In this document: positions 183-21,383 of the stretch, one piece after another | Layout of the letters: each line of letters begins with the position of its first letter | Numbering within the stretch: the stretch's first letter is position 1 | Origin: Spirogloea muscicola | Taxonomy: Eukaryota; Streptophyta; Zygnematophyceae; Spirogloeales; Spirogloeaceae | Reading direction: 5' to 3' | Length of the DNA: 21,383 bases | NCBI GenBank assembly: GCA_009602725.1 | Contig: WELB01000338.1 | Span: 75,964 to 97,346 of the forward strand | Notes under the pieces: model-generated | Databases searched by the model: none | What the model saw: only the letters and a program-made list of their open reading frames with translations | Told to the model about the DNA's origin: nothing | Made by a program: the position numbers and the translations under genes

Positions 183-1625
183 ATGGCGCCATCCAGTCTG
201 GCTTGCGAAGCTCGGCGGCTGTGCTTCCGTTACCTCGTGCTGCTTGCCGTTTTTGCACCTTTTTGCTGCAGCCATGTCAACGCTGTCAAGGAGGAGCTCG
301 AGTACGCCATTCTCAGCGACGAGACCGGGGAGATGTTCCACCGCAAGGAGCTGCCAGTTGGCATGACGACCAACAGTGACGACTGCATTCTGGTGCATCA
401 CACTGGCTGCACTTCGAGGGCAAGGTGAGTCGACAAACTGCCCCCTTGGGTATAGGGTTCAGGGTTAGGGTTCATGCACTGAGGTGGCCGTCTTTTCTAT
501 GTCGTTCCTCTCTACTCTGTGCATCCCAGAACACAAGCAAATCCGTGCAGATCAGCAGAGGTGAGCGTCTTGTGTAAGCCTTCAGAGATGTGGTCCCTGG
601 AATTGACTGCTTCTTTCTTGTTGCGGCAGATGGCGCTGTGTGACATGTGAGGCAGGAGATCACGTGGCCGCTGATCGCTTCACCAGCTGCCATGTCAAAT
701 TCGAGCCCGTGGAAGGAGCATCCTTAGTCCGTTTGACTTGTCAGGCTCTTAACCACATGACAGAGGGAGTCTCCGCGCTTGTGGATACTGGCTACTACCC
801 CAAGCTTTTTCCAACAGCGCTACGCAAGTGCACCTGGCCTCATGAGCGTGTCCCTCCACTCCGGCCTCATCGCACAAAGCTCTGTAATGATACCCAGGAG
901 CGTTATGAAGGGCTTCAACGCGAGAGACGACTGGCAGGTGGCGGCTCCACGTGCTCAAGTAATGGCTGCCAAGCCAAGCCGTGCAGTGGCGCTCCTGGCG
1001 GTACCGCAGGCAGTTGTGGCTGCCAAGGAGGCTGCACCCCTTCATGTATAGCACTCCTCCACCCATTCATGTCACTACCAGATTCCAAATCGTCATACAT
1101 GAATTTGAAGTGTTGTGTTGTGGTTTCAAAGCATGAGGCCAGCCACGGGAACGTCCTGCACACCACACAATTACTGCATTCGTCCACACAGAAGTACTTA
1201 TTCACGTCTGAAGTGAAATACAATTTTAGCACCAGTTTCGTTGTCAATTCTTGCATATTTACTTCATGGCCTGCGATGTGAGTATGGGATGAAGACTAGC
1301 TCCTGCTTGTTGTTGCCGCTTTCTTGCAGGCGGGTGCGCATGCCAAGACGTAGGGACCAATGGCAACACCGACTGCCAGTGCGTATCAACAGCTTCCAGC
1401 AATGGCATTAAGGCTACGAGCTCTTCATCGCGTTGTTGCAAGGAGAACTGCCATTACATTAAGGCGGAAACGTGCAAAGGTACTACCGCACTTGCTTGTT
1501 GCTGGGAAACTCAAGGAGTGAAGCAGGATTGCTCAAGATGCACTGCTGCAGATGCTGGTAACCCTCCGCCAGGGTTTATGTGCGGTTGCAACAACGTGCT
1601 TTCCGCAAGTACTGGTGTCTGTTGA
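183..1625 (+). CDS. A1: secreted cysteine-rich protein, three exons, intact
   Basis: Exons are 183-424, 630-1045 and 1330-1625, giving 317 residues. Intron 1 (GTGAGT...GCGGCAG) is phase 2 and splits an Arg codon. Intron 2 (GTATAG...TTGCAG) is phase 1 and splits a Cys codon. Both joins keep frame. Residues 1 to about 34 form a signal peptide with core YLVLLAVFAPFCC. The mature part carries EELEYAILSDETGEM, DDCILVHHTGC, then WRCVTC, TSCHVKFEP, GYYPKLFP and RKCTWPHE. The tail is dense in Cys (CGCQGGC, RCCKENC, ACC, MCGC) and ends GVC-stop. The mature protein has about 30 cysteines, which suggests a disulfide-rich extracellular protein. Retaining intron 2 would leave the frame open to 1281, with a different tail. 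I do not recognise the family. The gene structure is inferred from splice consensus and from paralogues B2 and A3. Confidence 0.8.
453..472 (+). repeat. Short telomere-like tract inside A1 intron 1
   Basis: The 20 bases read TAGGGTTCAGGGTTAGGGTT, a degenerate run of TTAGGG/TTCAGGG units. The corresponding introns of A2 and A3 lack it. It is too short to be a true interstitial telomere. It may be chance or a repair filler. Confidence 0.45.
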
Positions 1626-1692
1626 ACCCATTAGCCGCTTGTAAAATGGCTCAAACTTGACCGCACATTGCTGAAGATGATATCTCAATAGC

Positions 1693-2410
1693 ATGGCAAA
1701 GATGACGCCAGTAGCAATGCTCGTGCCGTTGCTAGTGCTTGCATACAGAGTCAGAACGATGTACTGTTGTTTAACAGGATCTTGAATAGCAATGAAAACA
1801 ATAAGGTGTCCTTTCGCTACTACGACCACTGCCTGCAATGCTTTTACGGCACCAACTGGCTCGCTTGCAGGCGGGGATATCACCCTAGGCCCGAGTGATG
1901 CTCTAGTATTGACCGGTAGTTGCTGTACAGACAGCCCCAGTGCGTTCTTCATGGCCAGCGGTGGTTGTACTACAACAACTGACCTGAGCAGTGTACGGCA
2001 TCGACTGGCTCGCTTGCAGGCGGGGGTATCACCCCAAGCCCGAGTGATGCTCTAGCACTGACTGGTAGTTGCTAAAAAGACAGCGCCAGTGCGTTCTTCA
2101 TGGCCAGCGGTGGTTGTACTACAATAACTGACCTGAGCAGTGTACGGCATCGACTGGCTCGCTTGCAGGCGGGGATATCCTAAGCCCGAGTGATGCTCTA
2201 GCACTGACCGATAGTTGCTAAACAGACAGCACCAGTGCGTTCTTCATGGCCAGCGGTGGTTGTACTACAACAACTGACCTGAGCAGTGTTACACCAGGAA
2301 ATAGCTACCCCAACAATAATCAGATGTACACTTGCACTTGGATAGGTCAAGAGGGCTCCTTTCTTATAGTAGATAATGCAGTAGTGGGAACTTGCTGCAA
2401 TAGTGTGTAG
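1693..2410 (+). pseudogene. C1: secreted protein gene broken by frameshifts and a 149-bp triplication
   Basis: An ATG at 1693 begins a signal-like peptide (MAKMTPVAMLVPLLVLAYRV). A one-base loss near 1752 then moves the frame, and the matching copy C2 lacks this loss. Downstream, coding sequence resumes with KVSFRYYDHCLQCFYG, GDITLGPSDALVLTGSCC, SAFFMASGGCTTTTDLSSV and TPGNSYPNNNQMYTCTWIG. It ends VVGTCCNSV-stop at 2408-2410. A further one-base insertion lies near 1852. The middle is tandemly triplicated with a 149-bp period, which is not a multiple of three, and copies 2 and 3 carry TAA after the Cys. The apparent ancestor was a secreted protein of about 140 residues with paired cysteines. 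The family is not recognised. Confidence 0.65.
1856..2290 (+). repeat. 149-bp tandem repeat, about 2.9 copies
   Basis: Units start at 1856, 2005 and 2154, each with CTGGCTCGCTTGCAGGCGGG and each running through GGTGGTTGTACTACAA to CTGAGCAGTGT. The third unit is slightly shorter. The mirrored locus in the right arm has one unit, so the expansion followed the duplication. Because 149 is not divisible by 3, it breaks the C1 reading frame. Confidence 0.9.
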
Positions 2411-2740
2411 AAGCCTGCTCTTTATGGTCTTATGGCCCTGCACTTACAGCACGTATTATCCATGTAGAAATATAGTTATGCGCTGGAGCAGCATCATTAT
2501 CTATACACACCAACATGGCTGGACTGCCCCTTTTGGAGGCTTCATTGTTGCGGTCTCCAGATTGATTGCTGCTATTACAGGCTCACAAGGAGCAAAGATT
2601 GTAAAAGTGATGTCCATAAATAATAGGGAGACAATCAGAACACCTCAATCAGACGGACGGAGACAAGGCTTTTTCACTCACTCATACTACCCTGATAATA
2701 AGCATAGCTTATAAATGGGGGCATCATATCCTTCTCTATA
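2411..2740 (+). other. Conserved open segment downstream of C1, possible exon
   Basis: The frame from 2403 to 2714 is open and includes STYYPCRNIVMRWSS and GWTAPFGGFIVAVSR, then IAAITGSQGAKIV. The right arm (19200-19457, -) keeps the same frame open with substitutions rather than frameshifts (STYYPNRNIVMRWSS, GWTAPFGGSIVAISR). This hints at a coding exon, perhaps of an alternative C product or a neighbouring gene. No splice junctions or start could be fixed, so the call is weak. Confidence 0.3.
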
Positions 2741-2862
2741 GACCTATCTAGTGTGATAAACTTTGTAAATTGTGTGGCTTGGACAACAGTAAGGTACCCT
2801 CTACTTGCAATTCAGGGGCCACCTTAGCATCGTATCAAACGTACCCAAGCAGACGCTCCATG

Positions 2863-3557
2863 TGTAACGATTTTACATGGCTGGAATGTCAATGCAGCTG
2901 TAACGTATTGACAGATGCCTGGAGATTAGACACCTCATCCGGCTGATCAATAAATTGACTGTCAGTGCCGCAGGAAAGGCTTGACAGATGCCTGGAGACG
3001 GACAATTTCACCAGGCTGGGCAGCGTGGCTTTGATATAGAGCTGAGAGCGGCGCAACCCGGAGTCGTGACACGCGAGACAGCATGGTGCTGGCGCTGGAA
3101 CGGCGACGGGAGGTGGCAGAGCTGTAGACTGCCTTGACGGCGTCGTTAGCCGTTAGTGCTGACGGGAACGATAGACGGCTGACGATAGCCTGGGGTAGTG
3201 ACCGTCAGCTGTAGTGACGGGGGACCGTCAGTATGGCGGTGGTTGCCGATGGATGGGTAGGTTGTCGGTGGTAGCCCGTTGAAAGCCGTCGACAGGACGT
3301 GGACGGGTCGTCAACGAGAGACTGGGTGCCAAATGTCCCATCCGGGCCCGTATGGTCGGGATCGCCGTCCGTCGGGCTATAAAGGGGGCACCCGAGATGG
3401 GAGAGGGGGTGAGTTCTTCACCCAACCTCGGACCCCTGGACCCTTGCCCCTGCAGTAACCGTTGCTCAGTTTTACCGTTGCGGCCCCATCCCAATGCCTC
3501 CCGCTTCTCCTTGCGCTGCCGGCAGCCCGGGCTTGGCGATCCACAGCATTCGTTACA
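2863..3557. mobile_element. Solo LTR (695 bp), probably Ty3/gypsy type
   Basis: The insertion starts TGTAACGA and ends TCGTTACA, with TG...CA termini and an 8-bp inverted terminal match. It is flanked by the 5-bp duplication CCATG (2858-2862 and 3558-3562). The right arm has the uninterrupted site with one CCATG copy (19032-19036, reverse strand), so the boundaries are firm. A TATAAA box at 3378-3383 is a plausible LTR promoter. An 18-bp direct repeat TTGACAGATGCCTGGAGA occurs at 2908 and 2981. No internal gag or pol sequence remains, which is the usual result of LTR-LTR recombination. The Ty3/gypsy assignment is inferred from the TGTAAC...GTTACA ends and the 5-bp duplication. Confidence 0.88.
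3378..3383 (+). promoter_or_regulatory. TATA box of the solo LTR
   Basis: TATAAA is followed by GGGGGC inside the solo LTR, about 180 bases before its 3' end. If active, it would drive transcription rightward toward D1. Confidence 0.5.
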
Positions 3558-3615
3558 CCATGACTGGTAAATTGACAGATATGTGATGCTTGTGCTATTG
3601 CAGATAACAGAGGTG

Positions 3616-4414
3616 ATGATGTTGTTTCCGACGCTCCTCTCTTTGATGAGCATTCGTGTTGTCGTTGCAGCTAAAGCAAGCTGTGCAATTATAGACAGTG
3701 TCAAGGGCGAATTATTTCCATGGGAAAACAACGAGGAGTGCTGGATAGAATCACTGGCAGAACGAGGCGGAGATAGATTATGGCATAATCTGTAGGTGCA
3801 ATGGTATCAACCATGGAAAGAAGCCCAGTTGGTACCAAGAAGTGCATATTCGTGTTTGGCATGACAAATGGTGACATCTCTTATGCACAATCTGAGCTGG
3901 TTGATCTGAAGACTAACGTGCAGCCCGTCCTTATTAGGCATGGTAACATACCATCGACTACTTTGTGACCGAAAGGTCTTGCACTATACCTGAAAATATG
4001 TCACATTCAAAGTCTATCATCTAGTGGAAGATGTGATTGCCATAGCCCGATATCGAGCTCAAGAGATGGGAGGATACTTGAAGGAGGGCTACTACCAGCA
4101 TGCTGTGCTGGAGTTGCAATCGCGAGTGCACAGACATGGGCCCAAGAACAGATAACCCTTGCCTTTATGAGATACCATCAAAGTGCACAGGGACATGGAA
4201 AGGCCCCCCCTGCAGCCTAATCTATTTTGACTGCGACTGTGTGAATCATGTTTACCATCCTGTGCTCGCACTTGCAGCCTTGTTTAGCTATGCATGTGCA
4301 ACAGTATCTCATCGCGGAAGCGCCAATGACCAAGTGTGTGCATCAAAGAGCACCATACTAGGTGCAGATTCTGTGATGACCAGACACTTGGGCCGGCGCG
4401 GTCAGCATGCATGA
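3616..4414 (+). pseudogene. D1: degraded secreted Cys-rich gene fused to E1 signal peptide
   Basis: The 5' part encodes a signal-like peptide MMLFPTLLSLMSIRVVVAAK, then KASCAIIDSVKGELF and ENNEECW. A middle stretch (KKCIFVFGMTNGDISYA) follows in another frame. The tail exon probably begins at 4025 after CTAG with GRCDCHSP. A one-base loss near 4110 shifts it relative to D2, after which ECTDMGPRTDNPC, CTGTWKGPPC and DCDCV follow. At 4261-4268 (TGTGCTCG) the sequence jumps into the E signal peptide (ALAALFSYACATVSH), because 95 bases present in the right arm are deleted. The fused frame ends at 4414 after an E frameshift. Confidence 0.6.
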
Positions 4415-4914
4415 ATACCGGATCAGTGAGGCCCACAAGAGAGAGAGGCACAGCCATGCTGCTGCCTGCTGCCTCGGCAGCACGTCGTTGCGGATCTCTA
4501 CCGGCTCTTCTGTGAGTAGTCTGTGGCTACTCCCCTTGGCCAACATTTGTGGCTCTTGAGAGAGGCGAGACGCCGCCTGGCGGCGGCACCTCAGGGCAAC
4601 TTACTCCGCTGCGTTATTTACGTGGTGCTTCACTGTGTTGGAGGTTTGCTTCTAAATGCCCAGTGACCAAACCGAACAAGGACGTTCTCTCCAAACGCTA
4701 GCTGTCACTAATGTACCAGCATGAGGTCGTCACACACGTCAATCACAAATGTCACTAACCAGATAAGGCCAGGGCGGCATGCAGGTCATGTAGTACCACA
4801 GCAAGGACAGGGTACTCTGATGCCAGTGGAGACCACATCTGCAGCAAGTACCTCTGCGTGAATCGGCATTCAAAGGACAATGTCGTTACAAGCACGCAGG
4901 GTAAGGAAACATGA
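4269..4914 (+). pseudogene. E1: broken copy of E2
   Basis: The start codon and first signal-peptide residues are deleted. The remainder of exon 1 runs to the donor at 4511/4512 (CTTCT|GTGAGT). A one-base loss near 4370 (GATTCTGTG against GATACTTGTG in E2) shifts the frame. Exon 2 at 4773-4914 stays open and nearly identical to E2, with AACRSC, DHICSKYLC and a stop at 4912-4914. E1 cannot make the intact protein. The mirrored copy E2 is intact. Confidence 0.65.
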
Positions 4915-5280
4915 GGCTTAAGATATCCAGAATCCATCCGGCTTTGTAAGTCAATTTTTCATTGTGCAGTGCGGTGTTTTAGAATCTGCCTACATGTTGA
5001 CATTGTGGTACTTCAATTCTCCTTGCAAGTACATTGCAAAAACATGTCAAGTGGGCATATACATACTTCTATATCGTACAGCCGACTTGGCACTCCAGTG
5101 GTAGTCAGGGCTGAAAGCAGGGCATGTTGCACAGGCAGAAGGATTCCACTCAGCCTTCAAAAGCATCAGGCTTGAGGGGCTGGAAGTTGGTCCAGCGACT
5201 GCATTCAGCAATGTAGTCAACAAAGCCACGCCATGACAGACAGTCCGCTAGGTTGTGTATCTGATTAGCCAACTCTTGAT
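4915..5280. other. Intergenic segment conserved between arms
   Basis: This stretch lies between the E1 stop and the B1 terminal exon and matches 17212-17584 in inverted orientation. The E-direction frame includes ALQ, then a shared TAG, then SGLKAGHVAQAEGFHSAF in both arms. The opposite strand has a 60-codon frame starting at a GTG. Neither reading has supported starts or splice sites, so I see no gene here. Confidence 0.5.
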
Positions 5281-6555
5281 CTATTCTCCGCAACTACAAG
5301 TTACTGTACCACTTGGGGATTTCGTGGCCGTACAATCCCGGAATTGGCAGTCTCGTCCATTTGCGCATCTGCCCATGCAGTCTCCCTGCGAATTAGGAGT
5401 CACGTCCTTGCAAAGGTGGATTTACGCCTGGTAACCTCCTAATGTGGCAATTACAATCACTATTGGGATCTGCCATTCGACAATCGCAGCCGACATTCAT
5501 ATTTTTGCCTGTTCACAACAATGTTGCAGAGAGGTATGAGTGGGTAGTCTTATATGAGATAAATCATAGCATCAACCGGGTGCTGGAAGTCACCACATCC
5601 TGCACGCCTCCATCAAGCTTCAGAGCAAGTTGACGTCCTGTCAACATCTACGCAGATGTACACCGAGCTGCAAGTCAAGTATATAAACACTTTCATCGCA
5701 AATCTAAGAAGGATAGCTTGCAGCCTTCACCTGTACTGCAGCATGCACCCAGGCAACCACAGCCAGTGCCTGCTGTACCGCCTTGGCCCTCACATGGCTT
5801 ATTCCGGCATTTATTAGACGGATCTGAAGAACATGGATTTCCTACATCATCCAAAATTCTGGTCCGGCGGAGCCCCTCATAGAGCTCCTGGGTCTCATTG
5901 CACTTTGTCACACGATCGGGGCGCATGGGTGGACATTCTCATGTGGCCAAGTGCACTTGCGGAGAGACACAGGGAAGCGCTTGGGGTAGCATCCCGTGTC
6001 AACCAATGTGGAGAGGCCTTCTGTCAGATGCTGGACAGCTTTGCAAGTAAGACGTACCGAGGAAGCTCCTTCTAGAGGCTCAAAGGTCACATGGCAGCTC
6101 GTGTGGGGTTCTGCATGTATATGGTCACCACTGTCGCATGTCACGCACTTCCACCTGACATCACTCAAGCCAGCAAACGAGGAAAACGTCACAAAGCTGG
6201 ACCTGGTCATATTGTTGTAAGCCGACAGCTGGGGCATGCGCAGATGTAGATGCCTTGTTGACCAGCTTCGCTCAGACCAAAGACCAGCCGGTCAAAAATC
6301 AAGTACATGCCTATTTCTGGGCAGCACTGTGCGAACGAGCTACAGATTGTGGTGTGTAAGATCAAGCGCCTCGCAAGTACGTTTGCCTAATGAGCTGGAA
6401 TGCAGCTCTGACGCCTTACCTGGCTTCGGAGGTGCAGCCAGTGTGGTGAACCAAGATGCAATCCTGTGAATCTGTTGTCGTGCCACTAGGCATTATCTTG
6501 GCCTGGTGCATCTCGCCGGTCTCCTCATTGAGGATGGCGTACTCCAGCTCTTCCT
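5281..6555 (-). pseudogene. B1: broken copy of B2, signal peptide lost
   Basis: Exon 1 remnant 6420-6555 starts at KEELEYAILNEETGEM. The signal-peptide codons are replaced by sequence found upstream of A genes, giving an unrelated in-frame upstream extension. Exon 2 (5731-6154) is 424 nt, one base shorter than in B2; the loss near the WPHENV codons shifts the frame. Exon 3 (5281-5508) is 7 bases longer than in B2: a 6-base in-frame change (DPNSDCNC against DGKCDC) and a one-base frameshift near NPPLQGR. Splice sites are conserved. B1 is therefore a pseudogene of the secreted Cys-rich type, lying tail-to-tail with E1. Confidence 0.75.
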
Positions 6556-7086
6556 TGCCAGCCCGAAAAGCAGTGACAAAGTTCGAAGGGGCCAGATTAC
6601 GAGGGGCCTGAAGCGCTTTTGCTGAACGGGTGTAGGATGGGCACAAAAGAAGCCTGCTGCTGATGTTAAAATAGCGGCTGTGAAAGCCAGCCAGGTTCAT
6701 GCACACCTTTTTTTGTGGCCATATAGCAGAAAATGCGCGGGCGTAGCGACGCCTTCCACTCCCACTCCCAAGTCCCCTCGCTCTCTGCCGCCCCTCTCCC
6801 CTATTTCCTTTACCCCACTAGACTGCTGTTTGCCTGGACATTTTATTGGCTTGATTTGGCCACCCTTAAGCCATGCGCACCGCATGCCTTTTTCTCTCCT
6901 TCTGCACTTTTGAAGCTCGTCCCTCCCCCTCTGAGTCAATCTACCTCTTTTACAAAAAAAATTAGCTCTTGAGGTTTGACAGCAGTGTCTGTAAGAGGCC
7001 ATATAAGAGTCCCGAGGTGCACAGCCCTCAGTTCAGACGCGCCTGGCTCTTGCCTCACCTCTGCTCGCCCATCTGGCTACCTGCAG
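6556..7086 (+). promoter_or_regulatory. A2 upstream region with conserved blocks and TATA-like box
   Basis: The same upstream sequence is present in inverted form before A3 (12086-12618). A shorter version is present before A4 (about 9710-10023). It contains GGCTGTGAAAGCCAGCC near 6677, then CATATAGCAGAAAATGCGCG with GGGCGTAGCGACGCC (6718-6753). A TATAAGAG box lies at 7002-7009, followed by a leader block AGTCCCGAGGTGC and GACGCGCCTGGCTCTT shared by A1-A4. The TATA box is 78 bases from the A2 ATG, leaving a short 5' leader. Confidence 0.6.
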
Positions 7087-7922
7087 ATGGCGACATCCAG
7101 TCTGGCTTGCGAAGCTCGGCTACTGCGCTTCCGCTACCTCGTGCTGCTTGCCGCTGTTGGACTTTCATGCTGCAGCCATGTAGACGCTGCCAAGGAGGAG
7201 CTCGAGTACGCCATTCTCAGCGGCGAGACTGGGGAGATGTTCCATGCCAAGGAGCTGCCAATTGGCATGAAGACCAACAGCGACGACTGCATTCTGGTGC
7301 ATCACACAGGCTGCACTTCGAGGGCAAGGTGACTAGACGGACTGCTTCCTTGCTACTGCTGTCATGCCTTGCGGTGGCAGTCTCTTCTATGCCCTTCCCT
7401 CTGCTCAGTGCATCCTAGAATAAGTGGCAAATCTGTGCAGATCAGCAGAGTGGGTATAAGTCTTCAGAAATGTAGTCCCTGGCGTTTATTATTTCTGTCT
7501 TTGCGGCAGATGGCGCTGTGTGACATGTGAGGCAGGGGATCACGTGGCGGCTGATCGTTTCACCAGCTGCCATGTCAAGTTCGAGCCTGTGGAAGAAGCA
7601 TCCTTAGTCCGTCTGACTTGTCAGGCTCTTAACCACATGACAGAGGGAGTGTCCACGCTTGTGGAGACTGGCTACTACCCCAAGCTCTTTCCAACAGCGC
7701 TACGCAAGTGCACCTGGCCTCATGAGCGCGTCCCTGCACTCCGGCCTCATCGCACAAAGCTCTGTAATGATATCCAGGAGCGTTATGAAGGGCTTCAACG
7801 CTAGAGGCGACTGGCAGGTGACGACACGTGCTCAAATAATGGCTGCCAAGCCAAGCCCTGCAGCGGCACTCCTGGCGGTACCGCAGTCGGTTGTGGCTGT
7901 GAAGGAGACTGCACCCCTTCGT
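7087..7922 (+). pseudogene. A2: A-family copy with premature TAG and no tail exon
   Basis: Exon 1 (7087-7328) is intact, with ATG, signal core YLVLLAAVGLSCC, EELEYAILSGETGEM and DDCILVHHTGC. The GTGACT donor and GCGGCAG acceptor keep phase 2 into exon 2 (7510-7922). Exon 2 carries WRCVTC, TSCHVKFEP, GYYPKLFP and RKCTWPHE. At 7802-7804 a TAG replaces the GAG of A1, just after YEGLQR. Beyond it the frame stays open to a normal phase-1 donor (T|GTAAGA). Intron 2 is interrupted at about 8063 by LINE sequence and no third exon is seen. If expressed, it would make a secreted protein of about 175 residues without the Cys-rich tail. Calling it a pseudogene rather than a short isoform is inference. 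Confidence 0.7.
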
Positions 7923-8062
7923 GTAAGATACTCATCCACCCATTTGTGTCATTACCAGATTCGAAGTAGTCATACTTGATTCTGAGGTTTTGTGTTGATC
8001 TCAAAGCATGAGGCCAGCCATGGAAACGTCCTGCACGTTACACAAGTACTGCAATCGTCACG

Positions 8063-9275
8063 CACACAATGTCAAGTGTGCGGCGATGATGACGTCCCTG
8101 GGCGTCCGTGGTGATAGGCATGATATCGTTGACTTCCACGACCGCACGGTAGCCGGCGTCGCGCATCAAGCCCGCCAGGGCATCGCGGAGGAGGTTGTGG
8201 ATGCCCACCACTTCTGGTCCAGTGGTGCATCTCAGCATGTGAGCGGCGAGCTCAGCACCCTCGGCACGGAAGCCGCGCTCACACTGGCGCACCCCAATCA
8301 GGCAGTTAGGGTGGAGGCCAAGGAAGAGTTGAAGCGACGTCCGAAAGGCCTCGGAGCTGATGCTGAAGGCGTTGGAGACGGCGTGTGAGGTGATCCAGTC
8401 GGTGGAACCAGGTGTGGCTAGAGAAGTAAGTCTTGCCAGGCTCCTTGGATTGTTCTGAATCTCTGGCAGCCTCCTCAACCTTCTGCGGCGCTCGTCTTCC
8501 ACTCTAACCAGTCTGGATTGTGCCCCTCTATCAGAAACTTGGGCGAGGGCGGAGATTGGAGTGAGGAGGGGTTGGAGAGAGGGGAAAGAGCCGATGGCTG
8601 AGTCGCGGATGCTCCTCAGATCCGCTTGGAAGGGGAGGGAGCCTTCCTCCATATTGCGTACAGGTCATGGAGGCAAGGGAAGCGCATTGGGAGCAAAGAG
8701 GCGATCTGGTGCCAGCAGCCCAGGAAGGCTGCTTGCGCCGTTTGCTCCAACGACCGGCAGCCAAGGCCGCCCATGCGAGTGGGGAGGGAGGCCTGGAGGG
8801 AAGCTGAAGCTGAGGGGAAAGATGAAGAATGTAGTAAAGTTGCCAGGGACTGCAGAAGGGAGTCATCATATTCCTTGTAGAGCTCCATCACCATGCCCAA
8901 TGGGCGACTGTTCGTTGCAGATAGCAAGCCCGTTGCCCGATGCGGCGGGTGAGGGTGGCCAACGCCAGCTGTGTGTTCCCAAGAAGGGGAAGGAAAGGGA
9001 GGGGGGCGAGGTGTTTATGAAGGCGTTCCCGCAAGTCCACCGCCACTTGAGCTGGTGTACCGAAGGGACCTTGAGGACGGCCAGCCCATTGGCAGGGGTC
9101 TGACAGCCGTGGGGGAGCTGCAGGTTGGCGGGGAGACCGCGTGGGGACCATGCCACGTTCTTGGACGGGCAGACCCGCAGGCTCATCAGGTCCAACTCGC
9201 GAACGAGCATGGGGTAAGCCGCCATGACATCAGCTGGAGGTCCAATGATGTGTGTATCATCTGCGTAGGAGAATA
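8063..9275 (-). mobile_element. Truncated LINE reverse-transcriptase fragment
   Basis: On the minus strand the fragment starts abruptly at the reverse transcriptase active-site motif YADD (9256-9267), followed by THIIGPPADVM and ELDLMSLRVCPSKN. Other frames continue with LPLLGNTQLALATLTRRIGQ, SLPTRMGGLGCRSLEQ, AFSISSEAFRTSLQLFLG, HMLRCTTGPEVVGIHN and RDALAGLMRDAGYRAVVE. At least two frameshifts separate these blocks. The fragment ends inside coding sequence near 8063, so both the 5' and 3' ends are missing. It is a dead non-LTR retrotransposon remnant lying in A2 intron 2. Confidence 0.85.
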
Positions 9276-9756
9276 GAGAATAGGGGCTGGGAAAGGCCAG
9301 CCCAAAAGAGAATCATCTTTTCTGAACAATGTGCGAAGGGGCCAGGGGAAGGGCAAAAGCTAGCACATGTGGAATTAAGCAGCTAAGGAACACTCAGTAA
9401 CCCTGCTAAGCAGCCGCAGATCAGAGAGACTGGGCCCCGCGAAGCCATCCGCCGTGGCGGTCGGCAGCCGGCCAGCCCGGCAGCCGGCAGACCGGCCGTC
9501 CGGCCGTCAAGGAAGGCACAAGCGTGGCACTCGCGAATTGAAGCGAAGTGCCGCGCCCACGTGCCTGTGACGGCCACACGTGCGCGCCAGCCACGGCGGC
9601 GGTTGCCGCTGCGCGCCGGCAGAATAGTACGAGGGCTGCGCCCATTGAGGCTAGGGGCTAGAGAAATCCAGCCAAAAAAAAGTGAACAAATATGGGCTGC
9701 TTCCTTTGGAAAGAGCGGCTGGAAAAGCCAGCAGGTGCATGCAGAGGGTGTTCATG
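9276..9756. other. Repeat-like spacer bounded by GGCTGG...CCAGCC motifs, no gene seen
   Basis: It begins with GGGCTGGGAAAGGCCAGCCC (9280-9299) and ends near CGGCTGGAAAAGCCAGC (9717-9733). The inside has a GC-rich block of GGCCGGCCAGCCCGGCAGCC type (about 9430-9640). The end motifs match the motif upstream of A2 and A3. No supported coding sequence was found. It may be an insertion in the A4 upstream region. Confidence 0.45.
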
Positions 9757-9793
9757 ACCATATAGCAGAGTGATGCGCGGGCCTTGCGACGCC
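9757..9793 (+). promoter_or_regulatory. Conserved upstream block of A4
   Basis: CCATATAGCAGAGTGATGCG followed by CGGGCCTTGCGACGCC matches the block at 6718-6753 before A2 and at 12418-12452 (reverse) before A3. Conservation in three copies at about 230-335 bases from the ATG suggests either a regulatory element or simply shared ancestry. Confidence 0.4.
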
Positions 9794-10023
9794 TCCCTGT
9801 GCCTCATTTCATTGAGAATCAGCAGCCGCAATATCCCGCCTCACCAAAACCCCCTTGCTGTTGCCTGGGAAAGCATATTTTCTCTCCTCCCCTTCATCTG
9901 CGCATCCGTGGACTCCTCCTTCCCCCTATCTCCTCCGCTTCTCAGGGAGTCCCGCGGTGCTCGGCCTTCGGCTCAGACGCGCCTGGCTCTTTCGTCCACC
10001 TGCTTGCCGACTGCTACATGAAG

Positions 10024-10238
10024 ATGGCGCAATCCAGTCTAGCTTGCAGGGCTCGGAGGCTGAGCTCCCGTTACCTCGTGCTGCTTGCCGCGAGTGCACC
10101 TGTCTGCTGCAGCGATGTCGACGCTGCCAAGGAGGAGCTCGAGTACGCCAGTCTCAGCGACCGGGGAAATGTTCCACGCCAAGGGGCTGCCAATAGGCAT
10201 GACAATTAACAGCGACGACTGCATCCTGGTGCATCACA
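10024..10238 (+). pseudogene. A4: truncated A-family exon 1
   Basis: ATG at 10024 opens MAQSSLACRARRLSSRYLVL, the A signal peptide, then DAAKEELEYASLS. A 5-base deletion in the ETGEM codons shifts the frame. The correct family frame resumes as GEMFHAKGLPIGM and DDCILVHH. Homology stops at GTGCATCAC (about 10238), before the second Cys and the splice donor. No exon 2 follows. The 3' side is A3's terminal exon in the opposite orientation. Confidence 0.75.
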
Positions 10239-10439
10239 AGCCGACCCTGAGTATAAGCAGCCGCATTCTCTCTTCATGATTGTCAATGTTCTAGCACGTC
10301 CGTTTGAGTCATCAAGCTCTGCAACCTACAAGTGCCTGTCGACCACTAAGGCAGGGCAAGTTGAAACTTCATATTAGTGTACGTTCTCGTCGCAACGATA
10401 TCAAGCTCTGCAATCCCACACAGTCGCAAGTCGACCACT

Positions 10440-12085
10440 TCACATACAGAGACCACAACTAACGCCGCTACATCCCACAGAAGTCCCAGTATTTGCTCCG
10501 CCCTCTCCGCCAGAGCACCCACTACATCCGTCTATTGGGCATCTGCAGAGGTAGCCGCCCATCACTGCACTACAGTCACATCCATGATTCGCACAGACTG
10601 GACAAGCTGCCAAAACAATGCGAAGTCATGAGGTTCTGCTACCAAGGATCACAGTAGTTGCTCAATGGCAGAGCACAGCAGATGTACAGGATGCATACGA
10701 AATTGGCGGGTTGCTGGAGCTGACACCTGCACGACTGTCAGTTCCTGTGCAGCTAGCATGATGAGGCCTTGCAAGTGTGACCGCGTCTAGCCATACACAG
10801 GAGCTATAACCGTGGAGTTCCTGAATTCAGACTGTCTTGCTTTGAGAAAAACTCACCTGGGTCTGCAGCCTTCTTGCCATTACTGGAAGCTGTACTTACG
10901 CACTGGCAGTCGGTGTTTCCATTGGTCCCTACGTCTTGGCATGCGCACCCGCCTGCAAGAAAGTGGCAACAACAAGCAGGAGCTAGTCTTTATCCCATAC
11001 TCACATCACAGGCCACGAAGTAAATGTGCAAGAATTGACAACTAAATTGGTGCTAGAATTGTATTTCAGTTTAGACGTGAATAAGTACTTCTGTGTGGAC
11101 GATTGAGTACTTGTATGGTGTGCAGGACGTTCCCATGGGTGGGCTCATGCTTTGGAACCACAACACAAGACTTCAAGTTCGTGTATGACCATTCGGAATC
11201 TGCTAATGACACAGATGGGTGGAGGAGTGCTATACACGAAGGGGTGCAGCCTCCTGGGGTGCAGCAACACTGCCTGCGGTACCGCCAGGAGCGCCACTGC
11301 ACGGCTTGGCTTGGCAGCCGTTACTTGAGCACGTGGAGCTGCCACCTGCCAGTCGCCTCTCGCGTTGAAGCCCTTCATAACGCTCCTGGGTATCATTACA
11401 GAGCTTTGTGCGATGAGGCCGGAGTGCAGGGACGCGCTCATGAGGCCAGGTGCACTTGCGTAGCGCTGTTGGAAAGAGCTTGGGGTAGTAGCCAGTATCC
11501 ACAAGCGTGGACACTCCCTCTGTCATATGGTTAAGAGCCTGACAAGTCAGACGGACTAAGGATGCTCCCTCCACAGGCTCAAATTTGACATGGCAGCTGG
11601 TGAAACGATCAGCCGCCACGTGATCCCCTGCTTCACATGTCACACAGCGCCATCTGCCGCATCAAGACAGAAATAATAAACGCCAGGGACTACATTTCTG
11701 AAGGCTTATACGAGACGCCCACTCTGCTGATCTGCACAGATTTGACACTTATTCTAGGATGCACTGAGTAGAGGGAAGGGCATAGAAGAGACTGCCACCG
11801 TAAGGCATGACAGCAGTAGCAAGGAAGCAGTCCGTCTAGTCACCTTGCCCTCGAAGTGCAGCCTGTGTGATGCACCAGGATGCAGTCGTCGCTGTTGGTC
11901 GTCATGCCAATGGGCAGCTCCTTGGCGTGAAACATCTCCCCAGTCTCGTCGCTGAGAATGGCGTACTCGAGCTCCTCCTTGGCAGCATCTACATGGCTGC
12001 AGCTGGAAAGTCCAACAGCGGCAAGCAGCACGAGGTAACGGAAGCGCAGTAGCCGAGCTTTGCAAGCCAGACTGGATGTCGCCAT
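10440..12085 (-). pseudogene. A3: four-exon A-family gene with a different Cys-rich tail; one frameshift
   Basis: Exons on the minus strand are 12085-11844, 11653-11236, 10952-10857 and 10606-10440. Exon 1 has the A signal peptide, EELEYAILSDETGEM and DDCILVHHTGC. Exon 2 has WRCVTC to RKCTWPHE. Compared with A1 it gains 2 bases after GTAGS (two bases longer overall, 418 nt), losing the SCGCQGGC motif and shifting the frame. Exon 3 starts like A1 exon 3 (GCACQDVGTNGNTDCQC) but ends at a GTGAGT donor after KKAADP. Exon 4 (acceptor TTTTGGCAG, phase 1) encodes CPVCANHGCDCSAVMGGYLC, then RCPIDGCSGC, and ends VSCGLCM-stop. All phases agree except for the exon 2 indel. It is recently broken, or a splice I cannot see restores it. 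Confidence 0.65.
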
Positions 12086-12618
12086 CTGCAGGTAGCCAGA
12101 TGGGCGAGCAGGGGTGGGGCAAGAGCCAGGCGCGTCTGAACCGAGGGGTGTGCACCTCGGGACTCTTATATGGCCTCTCACAGACACTGCTGTCACACCG
12201 GAAGAGCTGTTTTTTATTGTAAAAGAGGTAGAGAGACTCAGAGAGGGAGGGACGAGCCTCAAAAGTGCAGAAGGAGAGAAAAGGCATGCGGTGCGCATGA
12301 ATTAAGGGTGGCCAAATCAAGCCAATAAAATGTCCAGGCAAACAGCAGTCCAGTGGGGTAAAGGAAAGAAGGGAGAGGGGCGGGAGAGCGCGAGGGGGCT
12401 TGGGAGTGGGAGTGGGAGGCGTCGCTACGCCCTTGCATTTTCTGCTATATGGCCACAAGAAAAAGTGTGCATGCACCTGGCTGGCTTTCACAGCCGCTGT
12501 TTGAAGATCAGCAGCAGCAGGCTTTTTTTCTGCCCATCCTACACCCGTTCAGCAAAAGCGCTTCAGGCCCCTCCGTAATCTGGCCCCTTCGAACCTTGTC
12601 ACTGCTTTTCGGGCTGGC
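11070..12618 (-). repeat. Right arm of inner inverted repeat (A3 side)
   Basis: This is inverted relative to 6556-8062 and includes the upstream region, exons 1-2 and the start of intron 2. The match runs out into GCTTTTCGGGCTGG (about 12606-12619), the motif at which the B1 breakpoint lies on the other side. Confidence 0.8.
12163..12170 (-). promoter_or_regulatory. TATA-like box of A3
   Basis: TATAAGAG on the minus strand, 78 bases upstream of the A3 ATG, is identical in sequence and spacing to the one at 7002-7009 before A2. Confidence 0.6.
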
Positions 12619-12619
12619 T

Positions 12620-13037
12620 TAGCACAGCCCTTGCCCCCACTGGGAGAGCCACTTCTGCCCAGCCCGCGCGCCGCGGCGGCCGACCGCCATGCCTGGCGTG
12701 CCGCACGGCTCGCAGCGGGCGGCACAACGGCGCTCCAATCACCAGAGAAAGAAATCGGCGATGATATCTTATCGGGCAAGGGCCATGCTCGCAACGTCCT
12801 GGCTGGCCGGCCGCCCGGCTGCCTGGCCGACCGCAACTGCCACGGCGAGCCCTCGGCGTCGGCGCCTGGCCCGGGTGCGCTGCGCCGTGGGTCGGTTATG
12901 GGTCCTGGGCGGCGCGGGAGGAAGGTGTCAGCTCACGCACGCCCGGGCCAGTCAGGCTTCGCGCCGAGAGCCCGGGGCCCCGCCCTGTTAGTGCCCGCCG
13001 ACTGCCACCTCACAGAAGCGCGGCCAGATTGACTGGT
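12620..13037. other. GC-rich spacer, no gene seen
   Basis: Long overlapping frames here come from high GC (GCGCCGCGGCGGCCG, CTGGCCGGCCGCCCGGC). They show no domain, splice pattern or family match. The composition resembles the GC-rich blocks at 9430-9640 and 15010-15330. Probably repeat-derived. Confidence 0.4.
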
Positions 13038-13652
13038 GGCTGCAAAGGCCAGCCCAAAAGAATGGACAGTGTCTGAGGAAGCCTGAGTGCGAACGACTAG
13101 GACTAAGACATCAGCCAGGGAACGTTCAGTAACCTCTAGACTGGAGATGCAGGTCCGAGAAGCTAGCTGGCGGAAAGACGTCGCCCTAACGGAAGCCGGA
13201 GGCCGCCGCCAAAGCTCGGCCTGCGCGCAAGTGAACCGCGAAGGCGAGGGACCGCTGCATCGAGACGGCCAAACGCATACGGAAAACCTGAGCGAGGGAC
13301 CCGGCTACGTTGAAGCCGGGCTGCTCGCCCTGCTGCCCGAGGCGGCGGGCCGCTGCACGCCGCGCCAGGCGGTGGAGCAAGTCAAGCCTCGACGTGCAAC
13401 TTGCAGATGCGAGGGGCCCGGCACCGACGGACGCAAGTATTGCATCGCAGTAAGGTGCATTTCTTCGATTGCCATTGCTCCACTCACTCGTTCCGACAAG
13501 ATGACGTTTTTCAGCCGTGTACTCTGACCGTCACTCGCTGACCAGAGATTGTTGAGCGCCCACTCGCAGGGGACATGGCCAATCTTTCGTGCTTTTTGCG
13601 GCTTCCGGCCCTTTTCGACCTTGTACATTCTTTTGGCTGGCCTTTCACTGCC
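13038..13652. mobile_element. Candidate non-autonomous element with terminal inverted repeats
   Basis: The left end GGCTGCAAAGGCCAGCCC plus AAAAGAATG (13038-13064) pairs with the right end CATTCTTTTGGCTGGCC plus TTTCACTGCC (13626-13652). This is a 27-base imperfect inverted repeat, separated by about 560 bases. The interior has one long frame (13087-13527) with no recognisable domain. No clear target-site duplication was found. The end motif recurs elsewhere in the window (6677, 9280, 12480, 12606, 14460, 14700), consistent with a dispersed family of such elements. Confidence 0.5.
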
Positions 13653-14550
13653 ATTGCCTTAAATTGGAGGGCCTGTTCCCTTTGTTCTACAGAGCACTCC
13701 TACACTTCCACGCAGATGATGTATACTTAAAGTCGGTTCTTTCATTTTCTACAGAAGAAACATGAGGGTAACTGTCTCAATATTCACTCCAAATGATTGT
13801 GAGAGTCGCTGAGGCCAAGGGGCGGGCATTTCCTGCCGCACTGTCGGCGCGATCCGTGACCTCCAACTACCTCAATATTGAATATTCCTGATTCTATTCC
13901 TATTTCTCGTTGTTACTGAGCGGGTCAGCTTAGCAGCACGTGATCTGTATCCGTCTGTACTAGGGTTGCTTGTACTTGGCCACAGAGGCCCTCCATCAAT
14001 TCATACACACTCCATCCCTCCCCAACCCCCTCTCTTCTCCCACTCCCCCCATCTCCCTTTCCCGCTCTCTAAGCCATCGCCCTTTACTAGAAAATTTCTC
14101 TTTCATTTGAAAAGGAGGTGATCTTCTCGTTTCCCCTCCCTCGCTTCCTCCCTCCTGGCAACTGCAAGTTGCACGTCCAGGTGGCTGCTGGCGGGCCGTG
14201 ATTGGGCGATTTCCCAGCTCGGCGCGCAGCTCTGGCAGGCTCGGGCGTGCGTGGGCCTGACACCTTGCCCCGTACGACATGCCCCCCACGACCGGCGTGC
14301 CCCAGGGGCGGTGCTTTCGTGAACCGACAACCCCCTCCCCGGAGCGCAGCCACGACCGGCGTGCCCCAGGGCGGTGTCAGCCAAGTGGCGGATTTCATGG
14401 TGGCCCCCCAGGTCGTCGTTACAGTGCTAACGGCATTTTGTCCATTTATTCATCTTACTTCTGGGCTGGCCTTTCACAGCCACCGCCCTCTCCTTGGAGC
14501 CTCCTTCTGTTTCTTAGCGCTTCCCCTGGCCCCCTTCTCGTACTCTATTC
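13653..14550. other. Intergenic spacer with short repeats, no gene seen
   Basis: It is AT-richer to 14000, then pyrimidine-rich (CCCTCCC/CTCTCC) and GC-rich. It holds a 27-base direct repeat around CCACGACCGGCGTGCCCCAG (14286 and 14350) and another GGGCTGGCCTTTCACAGCC motif at 14463-14481. No supported coding sequence. Confidence 0.5.
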
Positions 14551-14608
14551 ATTCCTTTTCGGGCTGGTTGTTCCAGCCCCTATTCTCAATGGGCGAGCAC
14601 TTTCTTCT
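14551..14608 (+). repeat. 58-bp direct repeat, copy 1
   Basis: Nearly identical to 14806-14863, differing at about one base. Both contain a hairpin GGGCTGG-TTGTT-CCAGCCC followed by CTATTCTCAATGGGCGAGCA. Confidence 0.9.
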
Positions 14609-14641
14609 AACGACAACTGTCTGATGCATCTGAGCGTGCGC

Positions 14642-14679
14642 GAGTCGAGAGCCCCGAGAGCTCAGAAGGCTCTCGACTC
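14642..14679. repeat. Perfect 12-bp inverted repeat (hairpin)
   Basis: GAGTCGAGAGCC at 14642-14653 pairs exactly with GGCTCTCGACTC at 14668-14679 across a 14-base loop. It lies between the two copies of the 58-bp direct repeat. It could be a transposon end or footprint. Confidence 0.8.
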
Positions 14680-14805
14680 ACTCGTTCAAGGTAAGGAGAT
14701 GGCTGTGGAAGGCCAGCCCAAAATAAGGTAGGAACCAGGTCCGACAGAGATATCGTTGTTCTGTTGTAAAGCAACGGCTGGGAGAAAGGGGCTCTATCTC
14801 TGTTC

Positions 14806-14863
14806 ATTCTTTTTCGGGCTGGTTGTTCCAGCCCCTATTCTCAATGGGCGAGCACTTTCTTCT
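14806..14863 (+). repeat. 58-bp direct repeat, copy 2
   Basis: Second copy of the 14551-14608 unit, offset by 255 bases. The pair may mark the ends of a small composite insertion carrying the 12-bp hairpin. Confidence 0.9.
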
Positions 14864-15361
14864 ATCCGAAGTGGGCTGTGAGAGGGCAGCCTAAAGCGTT
14901 GTGCAATATCTGATAGGACCGAAAGAGCACGAGCATTTAAGGTTAGAACTGGCAATCAGTAATAGCTTCGACAACATTACTTACAGAGACTGATGATACA
15001 TATCACTTTGAGCAAACCCGCGGGATCTTGGGCCGGTGAGCCCGCGGGATCTCTGGCCGGCAGCTACGCGGCCCGCGAATCGCCGGGGGGCAAGCGGGCA
15101 CGGGGGCCCACGCCTGCTGGCCCTCGTCGTTTCACCCGCCGGGGGCAACGTTTGCTACTCTCAGCCAATTGCTGAGCAGCATCTGGCACACACATCCGGC
15201 CGGGCGTTCCGTGGGCTCCCAACCAACCGACAAGCTCTACTGGCAGCCGCCCGGGTCGGCCCACTAGGCTTGACAAGCCGGCTTAGTCGCCTGGGGCCCA
15301 GCCGCGCTGCCAGGCGAGTGGCAGGGCCGTGAGGGGAGAGAGGGGGCGGGCCCCCCCCCCC
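14864..15361. other. Spacer with GC-rich block, no gene seen
   Basis: About 15010-15330 is GC-rich with repeated GCCCGCGGGATCT words (15018 and 15041) and GGCCGG/CCGGCC words. Overlapping long frames reflect composition. No domain or splice evidence. Confidence 0.4.
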
Positions 15362-15608
15362 CTTTCTACTCTCTCTCTCTCTCTCGCCCCCTCCCTCCCT
15401 CTCTCCCCCTCTCTCTCCCTCCCTCCCTCCCTCTCAATATCTCTCTCTCTCTCTCTCTCTCTGTCTTTGTCTCTGTCTCTGTTCTTCTCTGTCTCTCTCT
15501 CTATCTCGCTCTCCCTCTTTGTCTCTCGCTCTCCCTCTCTCTCTCTCTGTCTTTGTCTCTGTCTCTGTTCTTCTCTGTCTCTCTCTCTATCTCGCTCTCC
15601 CTTTTTGN

Positions 15609-15642
<34 letters not shown>

Positions 15643-15686
15643 AGGGGGAGAGAGAGAGAGAGAGCGAGAGAGAGAGAGAGAGAGAG
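15362..15686. repeat. (CT)n / (GA)n low-complexity tract with single N
   Basis: CT-rich sequence runs to 15606, then one unresolved base at 15607, then GA repeat. A unit of about 70 bases beginning TGTCTTTGTCTCTGTCTCTG is duplicated with an 86-bp period (15462 and 15548). The CT-to-GA switch at the N makes the tract self-complementary, a fold-back structure that may reflect an assembly join. Confidence 0.9.
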
Positions 15687-15850
15687 TTTCACGCACGCGA
15701 CACTCGCCCTCCCCTCTCCTTGCGGCCAAGTGAAGCGCTGCCTCCCTCTGAAAGCTGTGAAACGTCCACACAGGCGCTCTCACTTTCAGGGCTCGCTGGT
15801 ACCAGCAGATCAGCGGCAACCTCCTCCCGCGAGCGCGACAGCCCAACAGA

Positions 15851-17211
15851 ATGGGCGCTATCGTGCCACGGCAGCTTGTCAACTTGCTCGTAGCTGGCGC
15901 CTTGACTGCGACACTCTGCATGAGTTGCTGTCATGGAGCCAAGGAAGAGCTGGAGTACGCGATCCTCAATGAGGAGACCGGCGAGATGCACCAGGCCAAG
16001 ATAATGCCTAGTGGCACGACAACAGATTCACAGGATTGCATCTTGGTTCACCACACTGGCTGCACCTCCGAAGCCAGGTAAGGCGTCAGAGCTGCATTCC
16101 AGCTCATCAGGCAAATTTACTTGCGAGGCGCTTGATCTTACACACTACAATCTGTGTCTCGTTCGCACAGTGCTGCCCAGAAATAGGCATGTACTTGATT
16201 TTTGACCCGCTGGTCTTTGGTCTGAGCGAAGCTGTTCAACAAGGCTTCTAACATCTGCGCATGGCCCAGCTGTCGGCTTACAACAGAATGACCAGGTCCA
16301 CCTTTGTGACATTTTCCTGGTTTGTTGGCTTGAGCGATGTCAGGTGGAAGTGCGTGACATGCGACAGTGGTGACCATGTATATGCAGACCCCCACACGAG
16401 CTGCCATGTGACCTTTGAGCCTCTAGAAGGAGCTTCCTTGGTACGTCTTACTTGCAAAGCTGTCCAGCATCTGACAGAAGGCCTCTCCACATTGGTTGAC
16501 ACGGGATACTACCCCAAGCATTTCCCTGTGTCTCTCCGCAAGTGCACTTGGCCACATGAGAATGTCCCACCCATGCGCCCCAATCGTGTGACAAAGTGCA
16601 ATGAGACCCAGGAGCTCTATGAGGGACTCCGCCGGGGCAGAATTTTGGATGATGAAGGAAATCCATGTACTTCAGATCCGTCTAATAAATGCCAGAATAG
16701 GCCATGTGAGGGCCAAGGCGGTACAGCAGGCACTGGCTGTGGTTGCATGGGTGCATGCTGCAGTACAGGTGAAGGCTGCAAGCTATCCTTCTTAGATTTG
16801 CGATGAAAGTGTTTATATACTTGACTTGCAGCTCGGTGTACATCTGCCTAGATGTCGACAGGACGTCAACTTGCTCTGAAGCTTGATGGAGGCGTGCAGG
16901 ATGTGGTGACTTCCAGCATCGGGTTGATGCTATAATTTATCTCATATAAGACTACCCACTCATACCTCTCTGCAACATTGTTGTGAACAGGCAAAAATAT
17001 GGATGTCGGCTGCGAGTGTCGAATGGCAGATGGTAAATGTGATTGCCACATTAGGAGGTTACCAGGCATAAATCCACCTTGCAAGGACGTGACTCCTAAC
17101 TCGCAGGGAGACTGCATGGGCAGATGCGCAAATGGACGAGACTGCCAATTCCGGGATTGTACGGCCACGAAATCCCCAAGTGGTACAGTAACTTGTAGTT
17201 GCGGAGAATAG
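15851..17211 (+). CDS. B2: secreted cysteine-rich protein, three exons, intact
   Basis: Exons are 15851-16077, 16344-16768 and 16991-17211, giving 290 residues. Intron 1 (GTAAGG...GTCAG) is phase 2 and intron 2 (GTGAAG...AACAG) is phase 1, at the same places as in A1. The signal peptide (core VNLLVAGALTATLCMSCC) ends before AKEELEY. Conserved blocks are ILNEETGEM, DDCILVHHTGC with Q for D at its first position, WKCVTC, TSCHVTFEP, GYYPKHFP, RKCTWPHE and GTAGTGCGC. The tail differs from A1: VGCECRMADGKCDCHI, then PPCKDV, GDCMGRC and RDCQFRDC, ending VTCSCGE-stop. The mature protein has about 26 cysteines. Retaining intron 2 gives a shorter protein ending SFLDLR. It is probably extracellular and disulfide-rich; function and family are not recognised. 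It sits convergent with E2. Confidence 0.82.
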
Positions 17212-17584
17212 ATCAAGAGTTGGCTAATCAGAACTGTGATACACAAACTAGCGGACTGTCTGTCATGGCGTGGCTTTGTTGACTACATTGCTGAATGCAG
17301 TCGCTGGACCAACTTCCAGCCCCTCAAGCCTGATGCTGTTGAAGGCTGAGTGGAATCCTTCTGCCTGTGCAACATGCCCTGCTTTCAGCCCTGACTACTA
17401 CTGGAGTGCCAAGTCGGCTGTACGATTTAGAAGCATGTATATGCCCACTTGACATGTTCTTGCAATGTACTTGCAAGGAGAATTTAAGTACCACAATGTC
17501 AACATGTAGTTAAATTCTAGAACACCGCATTGCACAATGATAAATGGACTTACAAAGCCGGATGGATTCTGGATATATCAAGCC
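17212..17584. other. Conserved spacer between B2 and E2
   Basis: Matches 4915-5280 in inverted orientation. No complete reading frame with a proper start or splice sites is seen. The segment is the shared 3' flank of two convergent genes. Confidence 0.5.
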
Positions 17585-18259
17585 TCATGTTTCCTTTCCC
17601 TGCGTGCTTGTATCGACATTGTTCTTTGAATGCCAATTCACGCAGAGGTACTTGCTGCAGATGTGGTCTCCACTGGCATCAGAGTAGCCTGTCCTTGCTG
17701 TGGTTCTACATGACCTGCATGCCGCCCTGGCCTTATCTGGTTAGTGACGTTTGTGATTGACGTGTGTGACGACCTCAAGCTGGTACATTAGTGACAGCTA
17801 GCGTTTGGAGAGAACTTCCTTGTTCGGTTTGGTCACTGGGGATTTAGAAGCAAACCTCCAACACAGTGAAGCACCACGTAAATAACGCAGCGGAGTAAGT
17901 TGCCTTGAGGTGCCGCCGCTATGCGGCGTCTCGCCTCTCTCAAGAGCCACAAATGTTTGCCAAGGGGAGTAGCCACAGACTACTCACAGAAGAGCCGGTG
18001 AAGACCGGCAATGACGGGCTGCTGAGGCAGCAGGCAGCAGCATGGCTGTGCCTCTCTCTCTTGTGGGCCTCACTGATCCGGTATTCACGCATGCTGACTG
18101 TGCCGCCCCAAGTGTCTGGTCATCACAAGTATCAGCACCTCGTATGGTGCTCTTTGATGCACACACTTGGTCATTGGCGCTTCTGCGATGAGATACTGTT
18201 GCATATGCATAGCTAAATAAGGCTGCAAGCGCGAGCACAAGGCATAACAAGCGAGCCAT
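17585..18259 (-). CDS. E2: small secreted cysteine-containing protein, two exons, intact
   Basis: Exons are 18259-17988 and 17726-17585 on the minus strand, 137 residues. The intron (CTTCT|GTGAGT...GGCCAG|G) is phase 2 and keeps frame. The signal peptide is MARLLCLVLALAALFSYAYA. The mature part has NDQVCASKS, ADTCDDQ, SACVNT and ARHCRSSPAL before the intron, then AACRSC and DHICSKYLCVNWHS, ending TQGKET-stop. The phase-2 intron followed by two residues and CxxC mirrors exon 2 of A and B (WRCVTC, WKCVTC), so E may be a distant, shorter relative. This link rests on structure, not clear sequence identity. The left copy E1 is broken. Family not recognised. Confidence 0.65.
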
Positions 18260-18318
18260 TTTAGCAAATCAATAGAGTGCACTCTTCATCAGAGTACACT
18301 CACTCTTATCTATGAATA

Positions 18319-18978: not shown

Positions 18979-19031
18979 CACCTCCGTTATCTGCAGTAGC
19001 ACAAGCATCACCTATCTGTCAATTTACCAGT

Positions 19032-19036
19032 CATGG
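19032..19036 (-). other. Empty insertion site of the solo LTR
   Basis: CCATG on the minus strand occurs once, between flanks that in the left arm are separated by the solo LTR and its duplicated CCATG. This fixes the LTR ends to the base. Confidence 0.9.
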
Positions 19037-19899: not shown

Positions 19900-19965
19900 A
19901 TTACTGAGAGATCATCTTCAGTAATGTGCGCTCAAATGTGAGACTTTTAGAAGCGGTTGGGGGGT

Positions 19966-20959: not shown

Positions 20960-21000
20960 CTGCGGCAGCAAGAAAGAAGCAGTCAATTCCAGGGACCAAA

Positions 21001-21383
<383 letters not shown>

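Follow-up and report, generated by a model that had tools for sequence, protein, structure and literature searches.

What lets a constant protein core carry tails that do not resemble each other is the question raised by genes A1 and B2 of the green alga Spirogloea muscicola. They lie in a stretch of 21,383 nucleotides (assembly GCA_009602725.1, contig WELB01000338.1, here C338, positions 75,964 to 97,346), which is called the window in its whole length, and both are three-exon genes. The first two exons code for a leader and for a conserved cysteine (Cys) core of about 180 residues, and the last exon encodes a Cys-rich tail. Our answer, to which we give a probability of roughly 60%, is that the two genes belong to a clustered birth-and-death family with a constant core and variable tails, for which recognition or defence is the likeliest role and whose diversity arises in three ways. 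Exons 1 and 2 would be a common chassis, and the 3' exon or exons a small Cys-rich variable head. In the B-type genes the tail loops between fixed Cys outpace non-coding DNA, with selection as the favoured cause. Tail kinds would be traded between cores, and new terminal exons would arrive in the matching phase 1, one by an insertion that is directly visible and the rest putatively; two of these new exons appear to have a junction in common with a neighbouring gene family. Finally, the loci are multiplied by inverted and segmental duplication.

A1 occupies 183..424, 630..1045 and 1330..1625 on the plus strand. Its exon 1 carries a hydrophobic leader and the block KEELEYAIL...CILVHHTGCTS, exon 2 the conserved Cys core, and exon 3 a tail of 97 residues that begins with CxC and is called alpha. 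B2, on the same strand, has exon 1 at 15851..16077, the core in exon 2 at 16344..16768 and, in exon 3 at 16991..17211, a hypervariable tail with a framework of 10 Cys, seen in the sequence and in the comparison of B tails. The junctions proposed in the sequence-only reading (424/630, 1045/1330, 16077/16344 and 16768/16991) are all GT...AG and yield open A1 and B2 proteins. The two genes do have intron positions and phases in common, as that reading claimed: the first intron is in phase 2 and the second in phase 1. All tail exons inspected are entered via a phase-1 intron. A scripted check of 28 gene models, from the window and the other loci, found GT or AG kept at 23 of 25 first donors, 28 of 28 first acceptors, 26 of 28 second donors and 24 of 27 second acceptors. 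Two of the seven misses are true non-GT first donors (the plus-strand copy of locus L018, and L031 with GC), four are one-codon coordinate offsets with AG or GT present (L024, L029, L035, L039), and in A3, the seventh, the GT is shifted by a 2-bp frameshift. The tails might be taken for chance open frames adjoining a core gene, that is, for an artefact of the gene models. This is hardly credible given the splice sites kept over the 28 models, the homologous fixed-Cys tails at many loci and the contrast in rate between tails and flanks.

With B2 exon 2 as query, the genome gave 59 matches at E<=0.001. Merged, these make 48 core loci, spread over 11 contigs; in 28 loci the core is one open piece (at least 380 nucleotides), and in 20 it is not. 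The family is clustered, and its loci increase through inverted and segmental duplication. It is apparently secreted: the N-terminus encoded by exon 1 is hydrophobic by eye. DCILVHHT is invariant in 16 rows of exon 1, and 26 columns of exon 2 are invariant across 28 rows. Exon 2 of A1 and of B2 matched 0 Pfam families up to E 1 and 0 NCBIfam families up to E 5, and 0 PDB chains were found at E<=10 with B2 exon 2 (phmmer) or with the 28-row profile. The core profile gave 9 pattern matches in viral contigs and 5 in prokaryotic contigs, with no relative among them, and no report of such a family in algae was among the matches listed from the open-licence literature. Judged by the libraries searched (Pfam, NCBIfam and PDB), the core thus appears to be an undescribed protein family, in agreement with the first impression of an unrecognised family with a conserved core.

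The tails measured are 60-99 residues long and are of different kinds. The alpha kind, the long tail of A1, had 22 matches, including nine full or nearly full tails, two pieces of A4 and eleven with the CxC start only. The beta kind consists of a phase 1-1 CxC exon and a Cys-rich terminal exon, the latter with 16 matches. The delta kind, a proline (Pro)-rich linker with a Cys head, had 4 matches, and gamma (L033) and epsilon (L024) occur at a single place each. The B tails are related to the tails of L020, L021 and L037 (hhalign, B versus L020-type, E 7e-6). The failure of the A1 and B2 tails to align, noticed earlier by eye, was reproduced with profiles: alpha and B tails gave no significant alignment (hhalign probability 0.6%, E 0.1), and only the CxC...CxC start is common to them. 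The third tail claimed for A3 was also found. On the minus strand, A3 exon 1 (11844..12085) and exon 2 (11235..11653, with the 2-bp frameshift close to its end) are followed by a CxC exon of 96 nucleotides in phase 1-1 (10857..10952, ends read from the sequence) and by a second Cys-rich exon, the beta terminal exon with CANHGCxC...GGYLCxC (10440..10606).

Other relations among the tails were considered and found unconvincing: alpha with L020-type tails (E 0.12), beta with alpha (E 0.048) and beta with delta (E 0.011 over 7 columns). Eight tail exons, together with two further genes of the window (gene E, and a piece of gene C), gave no Pfam match above the cut-off; the best Pfam toxin match of the tails was scorpion Toxin_2 at E 0.67, below the cut-off. 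Profiles of the B, alpha and beta tails reached a best E of 0.55 in PDB. The beta tail of L010 was searched with regard to EGF and matched 0 Pfam families up to E 10. A weak match of the delta tail to PF22812 (E 0.035) was confined to the Pro stretch and was not accepted. Two beta tails stand at L049 (C3:896000-902500), on a contig without a match in the core search; near one of them lies a core remnant broken up by a long simple repeat. At L023, 9720-9944 (+), a tail exon of the B type stands as an orphan: its intron end and flank are B-type too, and the stretch fetched has no core next to it.

A coding exon that diverges beyond its own intron is unusual and is often a sign of an arms race. 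In the B genes the divergence of the tail exon is three to four times that of the intron before it. Seven loci including B2 match B2 exon 2 at 84% or more, and the rate analysis used the five with open frames; B1 and L007 are broken and were left out. Mean nucleotide identity among these genes is 0.955 in exon 1 (4 genes), 0.888 in intron 1 (4 genes), 0.916 in exon 2, 0.903 in intron 2, 0.644 in the tail and 0.878 in the 3' flank, and the drop coincides with the ends of the tail exon. The nonsynonymous divergence (dN) of the tail is 4.17 times the non-coding divergence (K) and is higher than K in 10/10 pairs; the bootstrap ratio of the nonsynonymous proportion (pN) is 3.32 (2.57-4.31). The cores all evolve more slowly than non-coding DNA, with dN/K of 0.68 in B, 0.19 in alpha, 0.21 in delta and 0.13 in beta genes. 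In six B tails (the five and L007), 10 Cys are invariant and 63/77 columns are variable. The Cys codons of the B tails are identical in 150/160 pair comparisons versus 72/95 for other two-fold residues. Alpha tails have a smaller codon contrast (Cys 142/150 versus 150/164), and all 15 Cys columns are kept. The earlier proposal of diversification by exon replacement thus does not stand as the sole mode: the B tails are alignable homologues on a fixed Cys framework that have diverged within a nearly unchanged intron and 3' flank.

As one of the modes, exon replacement stands. In the tree built from 21 A-type cores, tails of the alpha and beta kinds are intermixed (5 and 6 changes, respectively), and the well-supported branches force at least two changes for each; delta forms a single clade. 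In L033 the intron between the CxC and beta exons is longer than in L031, L032 and L010 by about 676 bases, and the ends of the extra piece are clean. This insert carries the gamma exon, in phase and terminal, and the gene's own beta exon is intact behind it (C248:126647-126832). The upstream part of the insert and a gene on contig C403 are 88% identical along 101 bases. The start of that C403 gene is related to the window's D gene (34/60 identical, E 6e-18). The D gene, of which the start lies at 17984..18268 (-), belongs to another leader-bearing family. One junction peptide is found at four places of the genome, on C248, C403, C102 and C111. The C102 junction is that of the epsilon gene (L024), in which a stop stands upstream of its acceptor. 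Because of the L033 insertion and the junction peptide common to the four places, we conclude that a visible insertion brought D-type sequence into A-type genes once and that this probably happened a second time. The direction of transfer would be from D to A, and the gamma and epsilon exons are presumably used. Two features of exon shuffling are present: the tail acceptors are in phase 1 and the CxC exon of A3 is of phase 1-1, and sequence has moved between families, as the L033 insert and the D-type gene on C403 demonstrate.

Several observations weigh against our reading. The classical ratio of dN to silent divergence (dS) in the B tails is not >1, and the pooled ratio of nonsynonymous to silent proportions (pN/pS) is 0.86, because their silent sites have also diverged more (mean dS 0.58 versus 0.11 for non-coding DNA); therefore selection acting on amino acids can explain only part of the pattern. 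Raised silent sites, and an identity fall that matches the exon ends, are what would be seen if change were directed to the tail without selection, by exon-limited segment switching, by gene conversion from old paralogues or by hypermutation targeted at the tail exon; snake toxins provide a described case of exon segment switching (excerpt of PMC2474615). We consider such an origin unlikely. The tail of B1, a dead copy of B2, has little excess change (96.4% identical to B2, and 93.6-99.3% in the rest of the gene, in this one pair), although the changed sites, 8/221 in the tail versus 10/454 in intron 2 and flank, are too few to decide. Further, the Cys codons are fixed by position, and conversion tracts would be unlikely to end at both exon ends.

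The other tails do not outpace non-coding DNA. Alpha tails change at the neutral rate (1.00, 0.75-1.28; 5 genes), as do delta tails (1.05, 0.74-1.38; 3 genes), and beta tails change below it (0.60, 0.39-0.86; 5 genes). The fetched copies of L035 and L018 and A4, broken or partial, were dropped from the alpha set, the broken A3, L026 and L042 were dropped from the beta set, and L033 was unused. Alpha and delta tails at about the neutral rate, on cores at about 0.2 of it, are alone insufficient to show positive selection. These two kinds, and the 20 of 48 core loci that are not in one open piece, would also fit tails that have lost constraint and drift freely. Free drift is incompatible with the B tails, 3.3-fold above the non-coding rate, and it does not account for the Cys columns, invariant in both B (10) and alpha (15), so we regard it as very improbable. 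With regard to exchange of tails, 10/18 inner branches of the core tree are weak, the five tail labels together are clustered on it (7 changes; equally low in 1/200 shuffles), and the mixing of alpha and beta could also come from gene conversion among cores. Lastly, every sequence compared is a paralogue from one genome, and the proposed role is drawn from the pattern of the genes only.

In the reading that we favour, the tails would bind changing outside partners such as microbes, grazers or mates, and the core would keep folding, anchoring or delivery constant. The family, its exon structure, the contrast in rate and the insertion are read directly from the sequences; secretion, disulfide bonds and binding are predictions, as is the role. 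A bolder form of it is tentative at most. It supposes that an alga from the sister group of land plants operates a secreted recognition system that generates diversity, the plant lineage's counterpart to venom-type diversification: an array of constant cores would take up phase-1 tail cassettes, even out of a different gene family, and exchange them, and the tail loops would then be driven to change several-fold faster than neutral DNA. A role other than defence, in recognition of gametes or mating types or as cell-wall or mucilage proteins, is to be considered too. PPPP linkers are present in gamma, delta, epsilon and most beta terminal exons; Pro-rich linkers are also a feature of hydroxyproline-rich wall glycoproteins, and such a diversification pattern is typical of reproductive proteins as well. 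But the alpha and B tails are without these linkers and nothing puts the loci at a mating locus, and we think such a role rather doubtful.

The pattern has known parallels. In conotoxins the leader part is constant. Their gene superfamilies have hypervariable loops between fixed Cys and position-specific Cys codons, as described in an excerpt of PMC3823881. The B tails are alike in both points, whereas in this green alga the tails stay joined to the conserved Cys core (about 180 residues), and no sequence similarity was found in Pfam or PDB. The genes of snake three-finger toxins (accelerated segment switch in exons to alter targeting, ASSET) have similar introns and distinctly different exon segments among paralogues, according to parts of PMC2474615 and PMC2711939. 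The same contrast is seen here, but the change is limited to one terminal exon and the tails have no Pfam match over the cut-off. The likeness to conotoxins and snake toxins would be one of the way of diversifying, without detectable homology, and does not imply a venom function.

In the plant lineage, the citrus SCAmpP genes, precursors of about 50 residues for cyclic peptides of 5-10 residues (part of PMC4409773), likewise form a family that lies in clusters and has a hypervariable product domain enclosed by conserved gene sequence; by their description they are set apart from the Cys-rich domains on a conserved protein found here. The brown-algal ROCO/LRR (leucine-rich repeat) genes, with exon shuffling of variable modules and diversifying selection, are proposed as algal recognition proteins in the passages available of PMC11378527. 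They also carry variable modules on exons, but are described as GTPase/LRR proteins of an unrelated lineage, unlike the apparently secreted Cys-rich tails of our family. Plant defensin-like, NCR and SCR/SP11 peptides are secreted and Cys-rich, with a conserved signal exon and a variable mature exon. They differ in that the mature peptide is short and has no comparable core, and no defensin match was found among the tails sent to Pfam. New here is the hypervariable secreted Cys-rich pattern joined to a large conserved core and to exon capture, in a streptophyte alga. Together with phase-matched exon capture, the excess divergence of the B tail exon would make this alga a testable system for studying how repertoires of secreted proteins for recognition or defence arise near the origin of land plants.

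The window forms the end of a contig of 97 kb (C338:75964-97346), which belongs to an assembly of 153,112,186 bases and 471 contigs. It is built as a large imperfect inverted repeat, with the left arm at 583..6557 paired with the right arm at 15940..21006 in pieces of about 86-95% identity. The window has six copies of the core exon 2 and one isolated, broken exon 1 (10024..10237, +), and only A1 and B2 look intact. A2 (7087..7922, +) is a pseudogene with TAG in exon 2, and no tail exon was found behind it. A4 (19969..20933, -) has exon 2 and a broken alpha tail; its exon 1 was looked for and none was found. B1 (5281..6562, -), by comparison with B2, has lost the leader and its frame is broken. 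A light-harvesting exon of this assembly has its best matches in two moss chains, if one sets aside a long LHCI-2 chain with repeats that leads by summed score; chains from spruce, angiosperms and green algae come after, which points to a streptophyte. In the same assembly, Lhcb has three loci (C130, C37, C98) that are 82-87% alike at the DNA level, and several pentatricopeptide repeat (PPR) genes occur as near-identical threes; an excerpt of PMC7994812 describes a genome triplication in the zygnematophyte S. muscicola. With 150 of 541 candidates scored, 0/143 PPR matches were on C338, C248 or C215. The RuBisCO large subunit had no match in the assembly.

Other genes are found beside the core genes. 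The small gene E, with a leader-like start MAKMTP... by eye, is present at 1692-2410 (+) and 19488-19900 (-). Of the nine alpha tails in the loci fetched, eight have E about 200 bp downstream (A1, A4, L012, two in L018, L030, L035, L039; not L023), as if alpha tail and E had been duplicated as one block. Inside E, at 1845-2289, a unit of 149 bp, which is not a multiple of 3, stands in three tandem copies, and the other arm has one copy. Gene C, at 3558-4268 (+) and 18327-19036 (-), has a leader-like start, a Cys-rich end and broken frames. By eye it resembles a diverged core; we do not claim it as a core relative because hhalign of one exon gave only E 0.23 over 8 columns.

Remnants of mobile elements were also seen. 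A reverse-transcriptase-like remnant at 8038-9312 (-), of the long interspersed nuclear element (LINE) type by eye and without a significant Pfam match, is directly 3' of A2. At the contig end, 21173-21383 (+), after a (TG)n(GA)n tract, there is by eye an integrase-like frame of a copia-type element. The spacer between the arms, 12500-14900, has recurring short inverted motifs of the type GGCTGG...CCAGCC (by eye), and a 67-bp repeat at 14543 and 14798.

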